Of a DNA stretch of 21,592 bases, positions 105-5,177 are shown one piece after another. Made by a program: the position numbers and the translations under genes. The stretch spans positions 1-21,592 of the IMG/VR virus record IMGVR_UViG_3300026478_000590; one strand, 5' to 3'. The notes beneath the pieces are model-generated. The model had not been told where the DNA came from and made no database searches. It saw only the letters and a list, made by a program, of their open reading frames with translations. Every line of letters starts with the position of its first letter. The stretch's first letter is position 1. The stretch is from a virus.

Positions 105-1133
105 ATGCCTGTACAGAACACTGACCTGATGGTCATTCAGCAGGGCACCACGGCCTACAAGGTCAGTGCTCAAACGCTGAAAGCCTTTTTCCAGAACGGC
201 GTCACCCTCAACCCCGCCACTGCGGCTGTGTTGGGTGGCATCAAGGTTGGCACCAACCTGACGGTGACAGCTGATGGCACGTTGTCAGCCAATGTCACCG
301 GTGCTCTCACCTACAAGGGCACTGCCAACCTGACGGCTGCACCGGGCACTGGTGTCACCACTGGCCTGGCTGTTGGTCACCTGTATGTGAGCACCACCGC
401 TGGTGCGATTGATGCTGGCTGGACTGGCATTGGTGGCCGGACAGCAGCTGTTGGTGAGATGGTCCTATGGGATGGGACCAAGTGGGACATCGTTGGCGCT
501 GGTGCCAGCACTGGTGTCACCACTGTCACCGGCACTGCACCGGTCACGATTGGTGGTACGGCAACAGCGCCGGATGTGCGGGTTGCTGATGCTGTGGCAT
601 CCACCGCTGGTGCTGGTGGTTCGGCCGGTCTGATCACGGCAGTGCAGCTGGAGAAACTGAACGGCATTGCCTCGGGTGCGCAGCCTGGCACCGTCACCAA
701 CGTCTCCGGTACTGCGCCAATCCAGGTGGCGACCGGCACCAGCACTCCGGTGATCAGCGTGCAGGACGCCAGCACCACGGTGAAGGGTGTGGTGCAACTG
801 GCTGATGCAGCTGCAGTCACAGCTGGTACTGCTGGTCTGGTGGTTACTGCTGACCAGCTGAAGCTCACCAACGATGCGATTGCTACTGCTGCTGGTGGTG
901 GCATCACTGGCATCAGTGGTACGGCACCGATCACGATCACGGGTCCCAACACCGCAAAGGTAGTTGCTGTTGCTGATGCACTGACCACAGCCAAGGGTGT
1001 GGTGCAGCTGGCCACCAACACAGAGACCGCTTACGACGTTGCTGCACCGCTGGCAACCAAGGCGGTGACGCCTTCTGGGTTGCAGGCGAACTACATGCCG
1101 AAGGACATCTCCAAACTCACCCTGCTGCCCTGA
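105..1133 (+). CDS. Repeat-rich tail fibre protein
   Basis: This 342-residue protein is dominated by Gly, Thr, Ala and Val. It contains repeated units, each with a GTAP(V/I)x(I/V) strand followed by KGVVQLA: GTAPVTIG near 148, GTAPIQVA near 204 and GTAPITIT near 273, with KGVVQLADAA near 228 and KGVVQLATNT near 298. KGVVQLA-type repeats are typical of trimeric phage tail fibres. The N-terminus (QNTDLMVIQQGTTAYKVS) matches that of the DGR target downstream (QNTDVFAVTRGTNTYKVS), which suggests a shared virion-anchoring segment. There is no obvious Shine-Dalgarno sequence. The next gene starts 2 bases after the stop. The large open frame on the opposite strand here is a by-product of the repeats. 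Confidence 0.8.
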   Translation: MPVQNTDLMVIQQGTTAYKVSAQTLKAFFQNGVTLNPATAAVLGGIKVGTNLTVTADGTLSANVTGALTYKGTANLTAAPGTGVTTGLAVGHLYVSTTAGAIDAGWTGIGGRTAAVGEMVLWDGTKWDIVGAGASTGVTTVTGTAPVTIGGTATAPDVRVADAVASTAGAGGSAGLITAVQLEKLNGIASGAQPGTVTNVSGTAPIQVATGTSTPVISVQDASTTVKGVVQLADAAAVTAGTAGLVVTADQLKLTNDAIATAAGGGITGISGTAPITITGPNTAKVVAVADALTTAKGVVQLATNTETAYDVAAPLATKAVTPSGLQANYMPKDISKLTLLP

Positions 1134-1135
1134 TC

Positions 1136-2698
1136 ATGAGCAAGCTACAGAACACTGATGTCTTCGCTGTCACGCGAGGGACGAACACATACAAGGTGAG
1201 CTTTGGCGACATCGTTGCCGGGTCTCAGGCTGGCAGCAGCACTGCCCCCGCTGCGCCCACCGCCGGGCAGGTGTGGGTGGATAGCAGCACCAGCCCGAGC
1301 ACCATCAAGGTGTGGAACGGCACTACCTGGGTGTCGCAGGTTGGCACCACGGTGACCAGCGCCATGGCACCGACCACCCCGGCGACGGGTCAGATCTGGA
1401 TTGATACCAGCGCAACCCCCAGTGTCACCAAGATCTGGGATGGCACGGCATGGGTGACAGCTACACCTGATGGATCGGCGGCTGCGGCGATTGCCAACGA
1501 TGCGAAGTATGCGACGAAGGCAGAGCTACAGGCTGAAGATCTGTGGGACAGGGTTGGCAATGAACTCCGTCCCAAAAACGCTGGTGATCTTGTTGCCCGC
1601 ACTGTACTGCCTGCTGCATCAACTTCTGCCCAGGGTGCTGTGCAGATGGCTGACGCCGCTGCGGTTGCAGCTAGCACTGCAGGGCGTGCTGTTGATGCTG
1701 CTCAACTGCGGTCAGTCTTGCTTTACAACAGACGCCCCGCATTGCATCGAGGTTCACTGTTCAGCAAGACAGGAGCCAATGCCATCAGCATTGCAGCAGG
1801 TGCGGTGTTAAACGGTCGGCTTTATTCGACAGCTACGGCAGTGACGATGCCTGGCACGCACACAAACAATGCTGACTATGCAATTTGGCAGCACCCCACA
1901 ACAGGCGCACTTGCCGCTGATGCGAGTTTTGTCACACCTCCCGCCGTGGCGGCTGGCGGCAGCATTGTCGGCGGGTATCACTACATCCCTGCTGGCAGGC
2001 CAACTGGCTTCAACGGCGGCGCGCCAACAGCTGCAGCGGAGATTCTTGAGTTCAGCATTTGGGATTTGACATGGCGGCCGAGCTGCCCAGATCCACGCGC
2101 AATGGCGTGTATCGAAGGTGGATTTTGGATTGACCTGTATCTGCTTGGTGCGACCAGCTATGCCAGTAACAGTTTCAGCGCAGTTCCCAGCAGCCGCATT
2201 GGCTTGACGATTGCTGATGGCTCCAGCCCGCCATTGATCCCAGCGCAATATGGCGGCAATGGGACGACGGCCTATGCCGATGGCAAGTGGTATGTCTTTA
2301 GTGAAGTGGCGCGGAGTTTTGGCAAGCGGTTGCCGACTTACGACGAGTTCAGTGCAGCGGCCTATGGCGCGCCAGAGCAAACCAGCCGTGGCACCGATCC
2401 AGGAACTGTTCAATGGGAGCGCATCAGCAAGTTTGGTTTGGCACAGGCCACGGGGACGCTGTGGGTATGGGGCCAAGAAACTTGCACCACGACGCAACCA
2501 TCAGCGTGGACAACAGGCACAGAGACAGCTGGTCGTGGTCAGGTGTATGGATCTGAAACCCGCGCCGTCCTCCTCGGGGGCGACTGGAACGTTACTTCCA
2601 ATTCCGGTTCACGTTGTGCTAGCTGGACCGACACTCCTTGGAACTCCGGCAGCCACATTGGGGGTCGGCTGTCGGCCGGGCACCTGGTGCTTGGTTAA
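1136..2698 (+). CDS. DGR target: tail fibre / receptor-binding protein with variable C-terminus
   Basis: This 520-residue protein carries the variable repeat. Residues 1-20 share the anchoring motif of the preceding fibre. Two similar modules follow, GQVWVDSSTSPSTIKVWNG near 45 and GQIWIDTSATPSVTKIWDG near 85. The C-terminal part (about 200-520) is rich in Trp and Gly and looks like the C-type-lectin / formylglycine-generating-enzyme-like fold usual for DGR targets. Residues 476-514 are encoded by the VR and contain the scaffold GSRCxxWxxTPWNS. Adenine-derived changes hit residues 479, 483, 486, 496, 498, 499 and 505-507, while Cys494 and Trp484, 497 and 502 are kept. By analogy with Mtd of BPP-1 this is likely the host-range determinant. 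The fold call is inference. Confidence 0.9.
   Translation: MSKLQNTDVFAVTRGTNTYKVSFGDIVAGSQAGSSTAPAAPTAGQVWVDSSTSPSTIKVWNGTTWVSQVGTTVTSAMAPTTPATGQIWIDTSATPSVTKIWDGTAWVTATPDGSAAAAIANDAKYATKAELQAEDLWDRVGNELRPKNAGDLVARTVLPAASTSAQGAVQMADAAAVAASTAGRAVDAAQLRSVLLYNRRPALHRGSLFSKTGANAISIAAGAVLNGRLYSTATAVTMPGTHTNNADYAIWQHPTTGALAADASFVTPPAVAAGGSIVGGYHYIPAGRPTGFNGGAPTAAAEILEFSIWDLTWRPSCPDPRAMACIEGGFWIDLYLLGATSYASNSFSAVPSSRIGLTIADGSSPPLIPAQYGGNGTTAYADGKWYVFSEVARSFGKRLPTYDEFSAAAYGAPEQTSRGTDPGTVQWERISKFGLAQATGTLWVWGQETCTTTQPSAWTTGTETAGRGQVYGSETRAVLLGGDWNVTSNSGSRCASWTDTPWNSGSHIGGRLSAGHLVLG
2562..2678 (+). repeat. DGR variable repeat (VR)
   Basis: These 117 bp are collinear and gap-free with the template repeat at 3133-3249. 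I count 11 mismatches, and in every one the template base is A: changes to G or C and one to T. No C, G or T of the template is altered. The repeat ends in an unchanged G/C-rich block (GGTCGGCTGTCGGCCG), the expected place for the initiation-of-mutagenic-homing site. The VR stops 17 bases before the target gene's stop codon, so it encodes nearly the extreme C-terminus. Confidence 0.97.
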
Positions 2699-2700
2699 GA

Positions 2701-2714
2701 GGCGCGCCAGCGCC
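2701..2714 (+). other. Small hairpin downstream of VR
   Basis: GGCGC, a GCCA loop and GCGCC form a 5-bp stem with a 4-base loop just after the target gene's stop codon, 22 bases beyond the VR. Several DGRs need a GC-rich hairpin with a tetraloop just 3' of the VR for efficient homing. This is the best-placed candidate, but the stem is shorter than the usual 7-10 bp. Confidence 0.4.
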
Positions 2715-2722
2715 GATCTCCG

Positions 2723-3127
2723 ATGACCAGCAAGCGAGCCTCTGCGGATCCCTCCAAGGAGGCTCATGGCCTCTACATGGTCGAGAAGTACGAGCGGGTG
2801 ATCGACTATCTCTACCCGCTTGCTCAGACCATTCCACGCAAGCACGGCACCTTCCGAGAGCTGCTGATCAAGCAGCTCTTTTTGGTGGCCGAACACCTTA
2901 ACGACGCCATCAAGGCAAACCAGCTGAGCCGCTGCTACGTGCTTGACGGCAGCCTGGGCCAACTGCGATTGATGCTTCGGTTCATGGTGCATCACAAGCG
3001 CAAGCTGATCACTGAGCATCAGCTTGAAACCAGCCAGGCTTTGATCGGAGAAGTGGGCGCGATGCTTGGCGGCTGGATCAAGCGGTTGCAGGAAAACAAG
3101 AAACAGCCAAAATCAGAACGGTCTTGA
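2723..3127 (+). CDS. avd: DGR accessory variability determinant (Avd-like)
   Basis: This 134-residue, helix-rich basic protein sits between the VR-bearing gene and the TR, the position of avd in BPP-1-type DGRs. Helices are predicted by eye at about 14-36 (KYERVIDYLYPLAQTI), 43-66 (FRELLIKQLFLVAEHLNDAI), 75-98 (DGSLGQLRLMLRFMVHHKRK) and 101-125. This fits the four-helix bundle of Avd, which pentamerises and binds the reverse transcriptase and TR RNA. The tail is lysine-rich, as expected for nucleic-acid binding. The stop codon lies 5 bases before the TR. I identify it by length, helix pattern and context rather than a catalytic motif, since the family has none. A terminator-like hairpin lies inside the gene. 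Confidence 0.85.
   Translation: MTSKRASADPSKEAHGLYMVEKYERVIDYLYPLAQTIPRKHGTFRELLIKQLFLVAEHLNDAIKANQLSRCYVLDGSLGQLRLMLRFMVHHKRKLITEHQLETSQALIGEVGAMLGGWIKRLQENKKQPKSERS
2857..2883 (+). terminator. Terminator-like hairpin inside avd
   Basis: AGAGCTGCT (2857-2865), a GATCA loop, and AGCAGCTCT (2871-2879) form a perfect 9-bp stem. The last stem base begins a run of five T (2879-2883). This has the form of an intrinsic terminator but lies within the coding sequence. It could attenuate transcription between the target gene and TR/RT, or arise from the Leu/Gln-rich coding sequence. The structure is seen; the function is inference. Confidence 0.4.
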
Positions 3128-3132
3128 TGGGA

Positions 3133-3249
3133 GCGCCGTCATCCTCGGGGGCAACTGGAACAATACTTCCAATTCCGGTTCACGTTGTGCTAACTGGAAC
3201 AACACTCCTTGGAACTCCAACAACAACATTGGGGGTCGGCTGTCGGCCG
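3133..3249 (+). repeat. DGR template repeat (TR)
   Basis: This is the invariant 117-bp donor of the VR, lying between avd and the reverse transcriptase. I count 27 adenines, arranged mostly as AAC/AAT codons when read in the VR frame. That is the usual DGR design, because mutating AAC at its adenines gives many amino acids and no stop codon. Eleven of these adenines differ in the VR. After 3249 the similarity drops sharply (TR continues TGGCAACTG, VR GGCACCTGG). Confidence 0.97.
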
Positions 3250-3301
3250 TGGCAACTGCAAAACACCACTTTGCTCTGCTGTTTCTACGGGGCAGCAGGC
3301 C

Positions 3302-3323
3302 GGTGCCAGCCAGGTGCCAGCCA
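3302..3323 (+). repeat. Tandem 11-bp repeat in TR-RT spacer
   Basis: GGTGCCAGCCA occurs twice head to tail without interruption. It lies in the non-coding spacer that would form the 3' part of the TR RNA. It may be a structural element of that RNA or a simple duplication. Confidence 0.6.
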
Positions 3324-3404
3324 TCAAGTCCAGCTTCGGCAAACTCAGGGCCGAGTGGTGGCAATGGCAGGGAGTAGCCCATCGAAACCTGCCGCTACCT
3401 GCTG

Positions 3405-4379
3405 ATGGGACAGAAGTTTCGCAACCTGTACCAGCAGATTTACGACTGGGAGAATCTGCTTGCAGCTTACAAATCAGCCAGACGTGGCAAGACTTACAGC
3501 AGTTCGTATCTCCGCTTCAAGGAGTATCACCTTTCCAGTCTTAGGCATCTGCAGTTGCGGCTGATTGAAGGGGCATGGCGCCCTGACCCGCAGCTTGAAT
3601 TCGACATCATTGACCCCAAGAAGCGAACGATTGCCTGTCAGAGCTTTCGTGATCGTGTACTGCACCACGCCTTGATCCAGGTGGTGGGTCCGATCTTGGA
3701 TGCAGCGATGATGCCTCAGGTTTATGCCTGCAGGGTGGGGCTAGGCACGCATCGCTGTGTCGTGAAGATGCAGCAGTTGATTCGGCAAAACCCCGACAAG
3801 TGGATTTTGCATGTGGACTTCAGCAAGTTCTTCCCAACAATTCCGCAAGACCTTTTGTTGGACTACCTCGGCAAAAAGTTGACGTGTCGTCGGACCCTGC
3901 TGTTGATTCAGCAGGTGTTGTCGGTGCAGCCAAGCGGGGTGCCGATTGGTGCGCTGACCAGCCAGACCTTCGCCAACTACTGGGGCGGCAAGCTGGATCG
4001 CTTTGTCGCAGGCCAGGTCGGCGGACGCTTTGTGCGCTACATGGATGACGCTGTATTGATCGTGAATAGCAAGGCAGAGGGGCTGTCCTTGAAGGCTGAG
4101 ATTTGTGCGTTTGTAGCCAGCGAAATGGCTCAGCGCATTGGCAAGTGGAGCCTGTCCCCTGCTGGTCGAGGCGTCACCTTTTGCGGCTTTCGCATTCGCC
4201 GCCAGTTCAAGCTGATCAAGCGCCAATCCATGGCGAAGCAACGGCGCAAGCTGGCAGGGCTTCTGCGTGCTGGGGATGACGAGGGATGGCGCCGGTCTCA
4301 GGTTGCCTGGATTGGCCATCTGCGGCACGCTGATGGGCAGAATGCGTTAGTCCGTTTGGGGCTTGCCTCACCATGCTGA
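3405..4379 (+). CDS. rt: DGR reverse transcriptase
   Basis: This 324-residue reverse transcriptase has the standard order of motifs. These are VYACRVGLGTH (about 106-116), catalytic LHVDFSKFFPTI with Asp138, GVPIGALTSQ (178-187), catalytic RYMDDAVLI with Asp214-Asp215, and TFCGFRI (258-264). The IGxxxSQ form of motif 4 distinguishes DGR reverse transcriptases from group II intron and retron enzymes, which usually have QGxxxSP. The enzyme copies the TR RNA with adenine-specific errors, acting with Avd. There is no maturase or endonuclease domain. Its stop overlaps the next start (ATGCTGA). The start at 3405 has little Shine-Dalgarno character. All catalytic residues are present, so it is probably active. 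Confidence 0.96.
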   Translation: MGQKFRNLYQQIYDWENLLAAYKSARRGKTYSSSYLRFKEYHLSSLRHLQLRLIEGAWRPDPQLEFDIIDPKKRTIACQSFRDRVLHHALIQVVGPILDAAMMPQVYACRVGLGTHRCVVKMQQLIRQNPDKWILHVDFSKFFPTIPQDLLLDYLGKKLTCRRTLLLIQQVLSVQPSGVPIGALTSQTFANYWGGKLDRFVAGQVGGRFVRYMDDAVLIVNSKAEGLSLKAEICAFVASEMAQRIGKWSLSPAGRGVTFCGFRIRRQFKLIKRQSMAKQRRKLAGLLRAGDDEGWRRSQVAWIGHLRHADGQNALVRLGLASPC

Positions 4380-4624
4380 TCAACACGATTGAGGACTTGG
4401 CATCTGTAGACCAAACCCGCGAGCGCCAAGCATTTCTCCAAGCACTACTCAATGACTACATCACCTTTGATGATGCCAGTTATCCTGCTGACTATGATCG
4501 CTTGTTGACACCATCTGACGCTGGGTATGTGGTGCCAGTGTTGAGAAAAGAATGGAACGCTGGAGCTGCTGCAGCTTGGGGGTTTAGTTCACAAGATCAA
4601 ATCAAAGCATTGCTGCACGCTTGA
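4373..4624 (+). CDS. Small protein translationally coupled to the DGR reverse transcriptase
   Basis: This 83-residue acidic protein starts inside the last codons of the RT gene, so the two are probably coupled. The sequence is well-formed, with DDASYPADYDRLLTPSDAG, VVPVLRKEW and AAAAWGFSSQDQIKALL. There is no signal peptide, membrane segment or metal motif. I do not recognise the family. Position suggests a DGR-associated accessory protein or simply the next gene of the fibre operon. The same frame stays open after its TGA through the next small gene. Confidence 0.65.
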   Translation: MLINTIEDLASVDQTRERQAFLQALLNDYITFDDASYPADYDRLLTPSDAGYVVPVLRKEWNAGAAAAWGFSSQDQIKALLHA

Positions 4625-4699: not shown

Positions 4700-4852
4700 A
4701 TGCTGGAGCGTGAGGCAGTAGTAAAGGCCCCATTGAAGTTCACTGAGGTCTGTCCTGAAGTCAGGCAGCGGGCAGAGACGAACCTGCAGAAGTGGTTAGA
4801 GGTGTTGCTGGCGTTGATGGTGCAGTTCCACCCGCCGGGAGCTAAGCCTTGA
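4700..4852 (+). CDS. Small helical protein, 50 residues
   Basis: ATG at 4700 follows a good ribosome-binding sequence (GAGGAAAGC, 4688-4696). The product begins MLEREAVVKAPLKF, has a helical segment RAETNLQKWLEVLLALMVQF and ends GAKP. The frame is open upstream as far as the TGA of the 83-residue gene at 4622-4624. It may therefore be a separate gene, or the 3' part of a longer one interrupted by that stop. Its end overlaps by 11 bases the convergent ribbon-helix-helix gene. Function unknown. Confidence 0.45.
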   Translation: MLEREAVVKAPLKFTEVCPEVRQRAETNLQKWLEVLLALMVQFHPPGAKP

Positions 4853-5018
4853 CCCTCCCCTTGCGCTGCTCTGCACCGGTCTCCAGCAGGTGACAGCAGA
4901 GGGAGCTGAGGGACCGCCCTTCGTAGTCAGCGATCTGCTGTAGCTCTTCAAGCAATAGCTCAGGCACCGTGACGTTGATGCGCTTGGGCTTGCGGAACAT
5001 CACCAGCGAGGCAGCCAT
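4842..5018 (-). CDS. Ribbon-helix-helix (CopG/MetJ-like) DNA-binding protein
   Basis: From the ATG at 5018 the product has 58 residues. The pattern KRINVTVPELLLEELQQIAD followed by EGRSLSSLCCHLLETG is a classic ribbon-helix-helix: one DNA-contacting beta strand (RINVTV) and two helices separated by a short Gly turn. Such proteins bind operators as dimers and act as small repressors in phages and plasmids. The frame is open up to 5147, but the added N-terminal residues look non-coding, so the inner start (or MFRKPKR, 18 bases further in) is preferred. It is divergent from the exported-protein operon at 5178 and could control it. Confidence 0.75.
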   Translation of the reverse strand: MAASLVMFRKPKRINVTVPELLLEELQQIADYEGRSLSSLCCHLLETGAEQRKGRVKA

Positions 5019-5177
5019 CGGAGGGTATGTGCCCTGCGCAACCAACACGCCAAGGATGCACCATCCATCACTCACATGCGATGGGATGTGGGATAGAGCA
5101 CTCACAGGCGAGGCATTTTGTTGGGGACGCAGGCAAGGCTCTTCCACCAGCCTTAGCCAGTCCCTTCTGGACTATCC
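5019..5177. promoter_or_regulatory. Divergent intergenic region between RHH gene and exported-protein operon
   Basis: This 159-bp region must hold the start signals of the leftward ribbon-helix-helix gene and the rightward 5178 gene. I see no convincing sigma-70 pair. The 12-mer AAGGATGCACCA (5052-5063) is shared with the element upstream of the 14003 gene. CCAG-TCCCTT-CTGG (5158-5171) is a short inverted repeat directly before the 5178 start. Confidence 0.35.

Follow-up and report, generated by a model that had tools for sequence, protein, structure and literature searches.

The machinery of diversity-generating retroelements (DGRs) was first found in a Bordetella phage, where it rewrites the tip of the phage's own host-gripping fibre. 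In the cassette of Bordetella phage BPP-1, the target gene mtd, which ends in the variable repeat (VR), is followed in order by avd, the template repeat (TR) and the reverse transcriptase (RT) gene, and is accompanied by a bbp4-type small gene after the RT, a structured RNA of the Rfam family RF03022 and a DNA hairpin behind the VR. The same arrangement is present in the virus record IMGVR_UViG_3300026478_000590, a stretch of 21,592 bases that was analysed as a whole and is here called the window (Table 1). We conclude that the window almost certainly carries a complete and recently active DGR of the BPP-1 type, residing in a phage that has a T7-like RNA polymerase and terminase as well as an integrase, and whose host is most likely Synechococcus-like. 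This conclusion is based on the parts of the element, the adenine-specific differences between the repeats, their recurrence in relatives, VR-only change between near-clones, and purifying selection on RT and Avd (accessory variability determinant). The type of the element is already well described and most of the novelty lies in side observations, which are reported further below.

VR and TR align without gaps over 117 bp and their similarity breaks off abruptly at both ends. All 11 mismatches fall on adenines of TR, which account for 27 of the 117 positions, and the chance of such an outcome with randomly placed mismatches is 1.5e-8; at non-A template sites, the number of mismatches in the window's own VR is zero. 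An earlier note made on this DNA had given the same repeat coordinates, length and A-only mismatches, all of which are borne out by the alignment. Read in the frame of VR, TR translates as AVILGGNWNNTSNSGSRCANWNNTPWNSNNNIGGRLSA. In the asparagine codons AAC and AAT, any replacement of an A gives no stop codon. The note had traced nine variable residues to template Asn codons; this holds for eight of the nine changed codons and fails at residue 479, where the template codon is ATC (Ile). Furthermore, the variable set is larger than nine, as codons 485, 489, 503 and 508 vary in relatives and are merely unchanged in the window's VR. The two repeats have a G+C-rich 3' end in common (GGGGGTCGGCTGTCGGCCG), and no clear 21-bp copy of the initiation of mutagenic homing (IMH) element, IMH*, is seen after it in TR.

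The remaining parts of the element were identified by profile and structure-based comparisons. The target protein belongs to phrog_11262 (tail protein; 1.3e-118). Its alignment with the solved Bordetella phage Mtd structures (PDB 1yu4, E 1.7e-60) extends through the C-terminus, and the variable positions of the protein correspond by alignment to those of BPP-1 Mtd. The Mtd second domain and the alignment with the Mtd structures point to a C-type-lectin-like fold with VR at the 3' end of the target; a predicted structure of the Mtd-like domain, obtained from 23 relatives, was poor (predicted local distance difference test, pLDDT, 38.8). The description of the target as a fibre tip in the earlier note is thus supported through homology to a solved receptor-binding protein. 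Avd matches the Bbp7/Avd structure (PDB 4dwl) at 1.1e-28. The RT carries intact IGALTSQ and YMDD motifs, in agreement with the patterns [I/V/L]GxxxSQ and YxDD, and matches the BPP-1 Brt structure 8ub7 at 4e-71, compared with about 1e-15 for group II intron RTs. The RF03022 match is full length (1-127) and scores 69.3 bits (gathering 50), and the same RNA is present in BPP-1 and in 12 of 12 DGR-bearing relatives scanned. Single-sequence folding energy gave no unusual stability for the spacer between TR and RT (z -0.41), hence the assignment of the RNA rests on the Rfam match. Each defining part of a DGR that could be tested was therefore present, which agrees with the claim of completeness as well as with the order of parts and the intact RT motifs that had been reported. 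The interval 2562-4379 assigned to the element stands as far as it goes; it takes no account of the rest of the target gene, the hairpin at 2701-2714 and the gene at 4373-4624 that overlaps the RT stop.

Table 1. Features of the DGR cassette in the window and of the deleted cassettes in two Synechococcus phages
Feature	Position	Strand	Basis or remark
Target gene, Mtd-like receptor-binding fibre protein, 520 aa	1136..2698	+	Pfam, PHROG and PDB matches
Mtd second domain of target	residues 208-310		Pfam PF21916, 1.4e-16
C-terminal C-type-lectin/FGE-like domain of target	residues about 425-512		FGE-sulfatase PF03781, 2e-4, just under cut-off
VR	2562..2678	+	last coding part of target
Post-VR DNA hairpin, candidate target-recognition element	2701..2714	+	GGCGC-GCCA-GCGCC; GC stem, 4-nt loop
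avd, accessory variability determinant, 134 aa	2723..3127	+	PF22296 bAvd 1.5e-20; phrog_3206
TR	3133..3249	+	non-coding; conserved at same place in relatives
Structured RNA, Rfam RF03022 Phage_DGR, non-coding part of DGR RNA	3273..3399	+	between TR and RT
DGR reverse transcriptase, 324 aa	3405..4379	+	PF00078 1.4e-13; phrog_1423 3e-84
83-aa gene, no known function	4373..4624	+	phrog_30757; overlaps RT stop
Deleted DGR, S-CBS3	L143 8859-9142		mtd with VR and hairpin, then last ~48 RT codons
Deleted DGR, S-CBS1	L142 about 4842-5128		mtd with VR and hairpin, then last ~48 RT codons

The same cassette was found in other IMG/VR contigs, with 37 RT relatives in a first search and about 47 in a second; their RTs are 69-100% identical and most have the same TR/VR length. 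In 46 TR/VR pairs with a length of 100 bp or more, drawn from the window and related loci, 681 of 1,235 template adenines differ (55%; 348 to G, 174 to T and 159 to C). The figures are 4 of 1,611 for C and 6 of 1,462 for G, or 0.3% of the two taken together, with one N in addition; these counts are not independent events because some of the loci share ancestry, and they derive from a pairing score that penalises non-A mismatches and may trim the ends of segments. Differences at non-A template positions in relatives, which had been named in advance as evidence against the element, are rare (41 and one N versus 681 at A, with T-to-G making up 28 of the 41) and therefore do not refute the reading of the note.

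Evidence for recent activity comes from two pairs of near-identical natural genomes. The near-clone contig L002 differs from the window at 7 sites in 6,802 shared bp and has an identical TR; four of the seven differences lie within VR, of which the contig contains 104 bp, each at a template A. Two contigs from one other metagenome, L020 and L128 (the latter carrying L021), show no difference in avd (0/454), RT (0/1100) or TR, 3 differences in 600 positions of upstream mtd, and 8 differences in VR, all at template adenines. Strong purifying selection acts on RT and Avd: compared with the related locus L003, the RT has a non-synonymous rate (dN) of 0.008 and a synonymous rate (dS) of 0.21, giving a dN/dS of about 0.04, and RT values overall are about 0.04-0.1. 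Recent activity of the window's DGR, which the earlier note had called apparent, is well supported by these comparisons.

Had there been only a repeat and an RT, an ordinary duplication could have sufficed, with one copy mutated by chance or by some other hypermutation and the RT a bystander of the retron or group II intron type. This explanation is contradicted by the restriction of mismatches to template adenines, which is repeated in dozens of relatives, by an RT whose matches to DGR families and to the BPP-1 structure are much stronger than those to intron RTs, and by the presence of Avd and RF03022; we consider it refuted, with a probability close to nil. Slightly less improbable, although still very unlikely, is that the DGR looks intact and is inactive, its VR having been diversified in the past and now being frozen. 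DGR loss is indeed known in this family, where S-CBS1 and S-CBS3, both Synechococcus phages, have retained mtd, the hairpin and the end of the RT gene, and the activity of the window's DGR is deduced from sequence comparison. However, the near-clones differ mainly in VR and there solely at template A, which largely refutes a frozen VR, and both the strong purifying selection on RT and Avd and the lack of any non-A mismatch in the window's VR also speak against it.

Several points weigh against a complete and active BPP-1-type DGR in such a phage. The window is a 21.6-kb fragment, and no relatives of the RT or the integrase were found in 84,980 bacterial and archaeal species. The hairpin, which stands at the place of the BPP-1 target hairpin (PMC3240598), departs from the published pattern of a 7-10 bp stem and a GRNA loop consensus: the stem in the window is shorter, at 5 bp, and its GCCA loop lies outside that consensus. 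The offset of the hairpin is identical in nearly all close relatives, in some of which the stem is GGCGC/GCGCC and in others GGCCC/GGGCC, a compensatory change, and the loop across the family is GNYA.

The priming and homing steps, the roles of the hairpin and the RNA, and the effect on host range are drawn from the BPP-1 literature by analogy. On that model, TR would be transcribed together with the structured 3' spacer RNA, and a complex of Avd and RT would make cDNA from the TR transcript, miscopying roughly half of the template adenines. This cDNA would then take the place of VR in the last part of the mtd-like gene, 5' of the target hairpin, and the altered receptor-binding residues in the fibres could alter adsorption and permit the selection of new receptor specificity.

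Apart from the cassette, the window encodes a T7-type terminase, a T7-like RNA polymerase, a Gp2.5-like protein, an integrase and an endolysin; no tRNA was found in it that could have served as marker of an attachment site. The closest annotated relatives are the uncultured Mediterranean phage S38-C3 (terminase 76.5%) and Synechococcus phage S-SRP02 (terminase 67%, integrase 64%, RNA polymerase 48.5%), while the nearest mtd genes are those of S-CBS3 (70%) and S-CBS1 (62%); a megablast search of phage records with the complete window gave no match. As the genome scans gave no relative of the RT or integrase, the identity of the host rests on the phage relatives, and because the nearest of these include Synechococcus phages, a Synechococcus-like cyanobacterium is the likely host. 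A relative of the RNA polymerase was detectable in 6 of 12 cassette-bearing records, at 28-51% identity. Since the backbones of the relatives differ, it looks as if the cassette is transferred or maintained as a single unit, although part of these records are fragments.

A number of unusual records were also noticed. The gene 17 tail fibre of LR745708 and LR745707, both labelled Escherichia phage T7, matches the Mtd-like C-terminus with 43% identity, and these records are probably of engineered phages. In locus L014 (807-1770), the mtd reading frame continues directly into TR and avd was not found, and in L011 (about 4218-4280) VR is shortened; TR-VR recombination or an assembly collapse over the repeat may account for these anomalies. 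A scan of both strands of the whole 21,592-nt window revealed no second VR. One more distant relative (L078) has a single TR with two VRs (near 2358-2473 and 3487-3602), i.e. a two-target DGR.

The 83-aa gene lies directly 3' of the RT in all 40 of 40 DGR loci checked. Its profile marks it as a remote homologue of bbp4, the gene found at this position in BPP-1 (hhalign 93%, E 2.4e-7; hmmsearch 2.7e-7 in a set of 8); in DGR phages of Vibrio, Aeromonas and Pseudoalteromonas, the slot after the RT holds an unrelated small protein. The gene also follows the RT remnant in S-CBS1 and S-CBS3, two cultured phages from which avd and TR are gone and in which mtd, the hairpin and the small gene are kept, the remains of the cassette being annotated just as mtd and a hypothetical gene. 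When the S-CBS3 VR was compared with the best TR of a relative, 13 of 17 differences were at A. Judging from these remains, the two cassettes look as if they go back to a single internal deletion in an ancestor, which left the target frozen. The retention of the small gene where the RT is missing suggests a role in the fibre and not in retrohoming.

A further observation concerns template T, which differs at 32 of 1,047 positions in the 46 pairs, 28 of these being T-to-G changes (Fisher P 1e-11 versus C plus G), and at none in the window's own VR. The T-to-G changes occur before C, A or T and never before G (0/353), and at sites following an A they are seen in 12 of 81 cases where that A changed compared with 0 of 74 where it was unchanged. 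They recur at positions 10, 42 and 97. A later change in TR was considered as the cause and fits position 39 of L003; decay of TR does not explain the remaining changes, because the three recurrent positions are T in 31 of 31 TRs of the group. The RTs of this DGR group may also be unfaithful, to a lesser degree, at template U, placing dC opposite U and so giving T-to-G in VR. The simplest explanation is misincorporation by the RT that errs at A, since C is also the commonest error opposite A, and we judge the chances for and against it to be evenly balanced. Selection favouring certain residues could play a part (Ile to Arg at codons 479 and 508, Ser to Ala at 490), but selection alone is disfavoured because some of the changes are synonymous. 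If true, a T-to-G activity would reach codons closed to A-only mutagenesis, for example in going from Ile to Arg. In a control set of nine DGR phages (cultured or deposited), T mismatches numbered only two; each was T-to-G and came from Pseudoalteromonas phage ACA1. The direction agrees, but two cases are too few to decide the matter. A published survey reported many DGRs with non-A substitutions, but with T going mainly to C, and cited 0-0.5% for BPP-1 (PMC6642488).

These results place a BPP-1-type cassette in phages that probably infect Synechococcus-like cyanobacteria. The 46 TR/VR pairs, several of which share one TR, constitute a natural data set of DGR output in the wild at the sequence level, and with S-CBS1 and S-CBS3, which have lost the machinery, a receptor-binding protein that stays fixed can readily be compared with one that rewrites itself. 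Two leads open to testing are the T-to-G signal and the small gene that invariably follows the RT.

With regard to known systems, the window shares A-biased TR/VR pairs, C-type-lectin targets and a viral setting with systems described in the global DGR survey (PMC8144416), in which the relevant passages of the text that were located do not name a cyanophage group with this cassette. The IMG/VR relatives are unlike the window in their varied backbones and in an RNA polymerase that is either divergent or not found on the contig. S-CBS1 and S-CBS3 resemble it in having the closest annotated targets, the position of the hairpin and the gene after the cassette; they are unlike it in the loss of avd and TR, in an RT reduced to its last ~48 codons and in a fixed target. 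Compared with BPP-1, the window's phage has a different backbone with a T7-like RNA polymerase, its target has an extra ~190-aa N-terminal part, and its hairpin has a shorter stem and a GCCA in place of a GAAA loop. The TR/VR identity spans 117 bp, compared with the 134 bp annotated in BPP-1, because the last ~17 bp of the BPP-1 VR (IMH) have no similar counterpart in the window's TR. Identity to BPP-1 is 41% for Mtd, 39% for the RT and 76.7% over 90 bp for TR, and the in-frame readings of the BPP-1 TR (GGNWNNTSNSGSRAANWNNGPSNSNANIG) and of the window's TR (GGNWNNTSNSGSRCANWNNTPWNSNNNIG) have Asn at the same positions, so that the Asn codons stand at corresponding places in both (GGNWNNTSNSGSRxANWNNxPxNSNxNIG).

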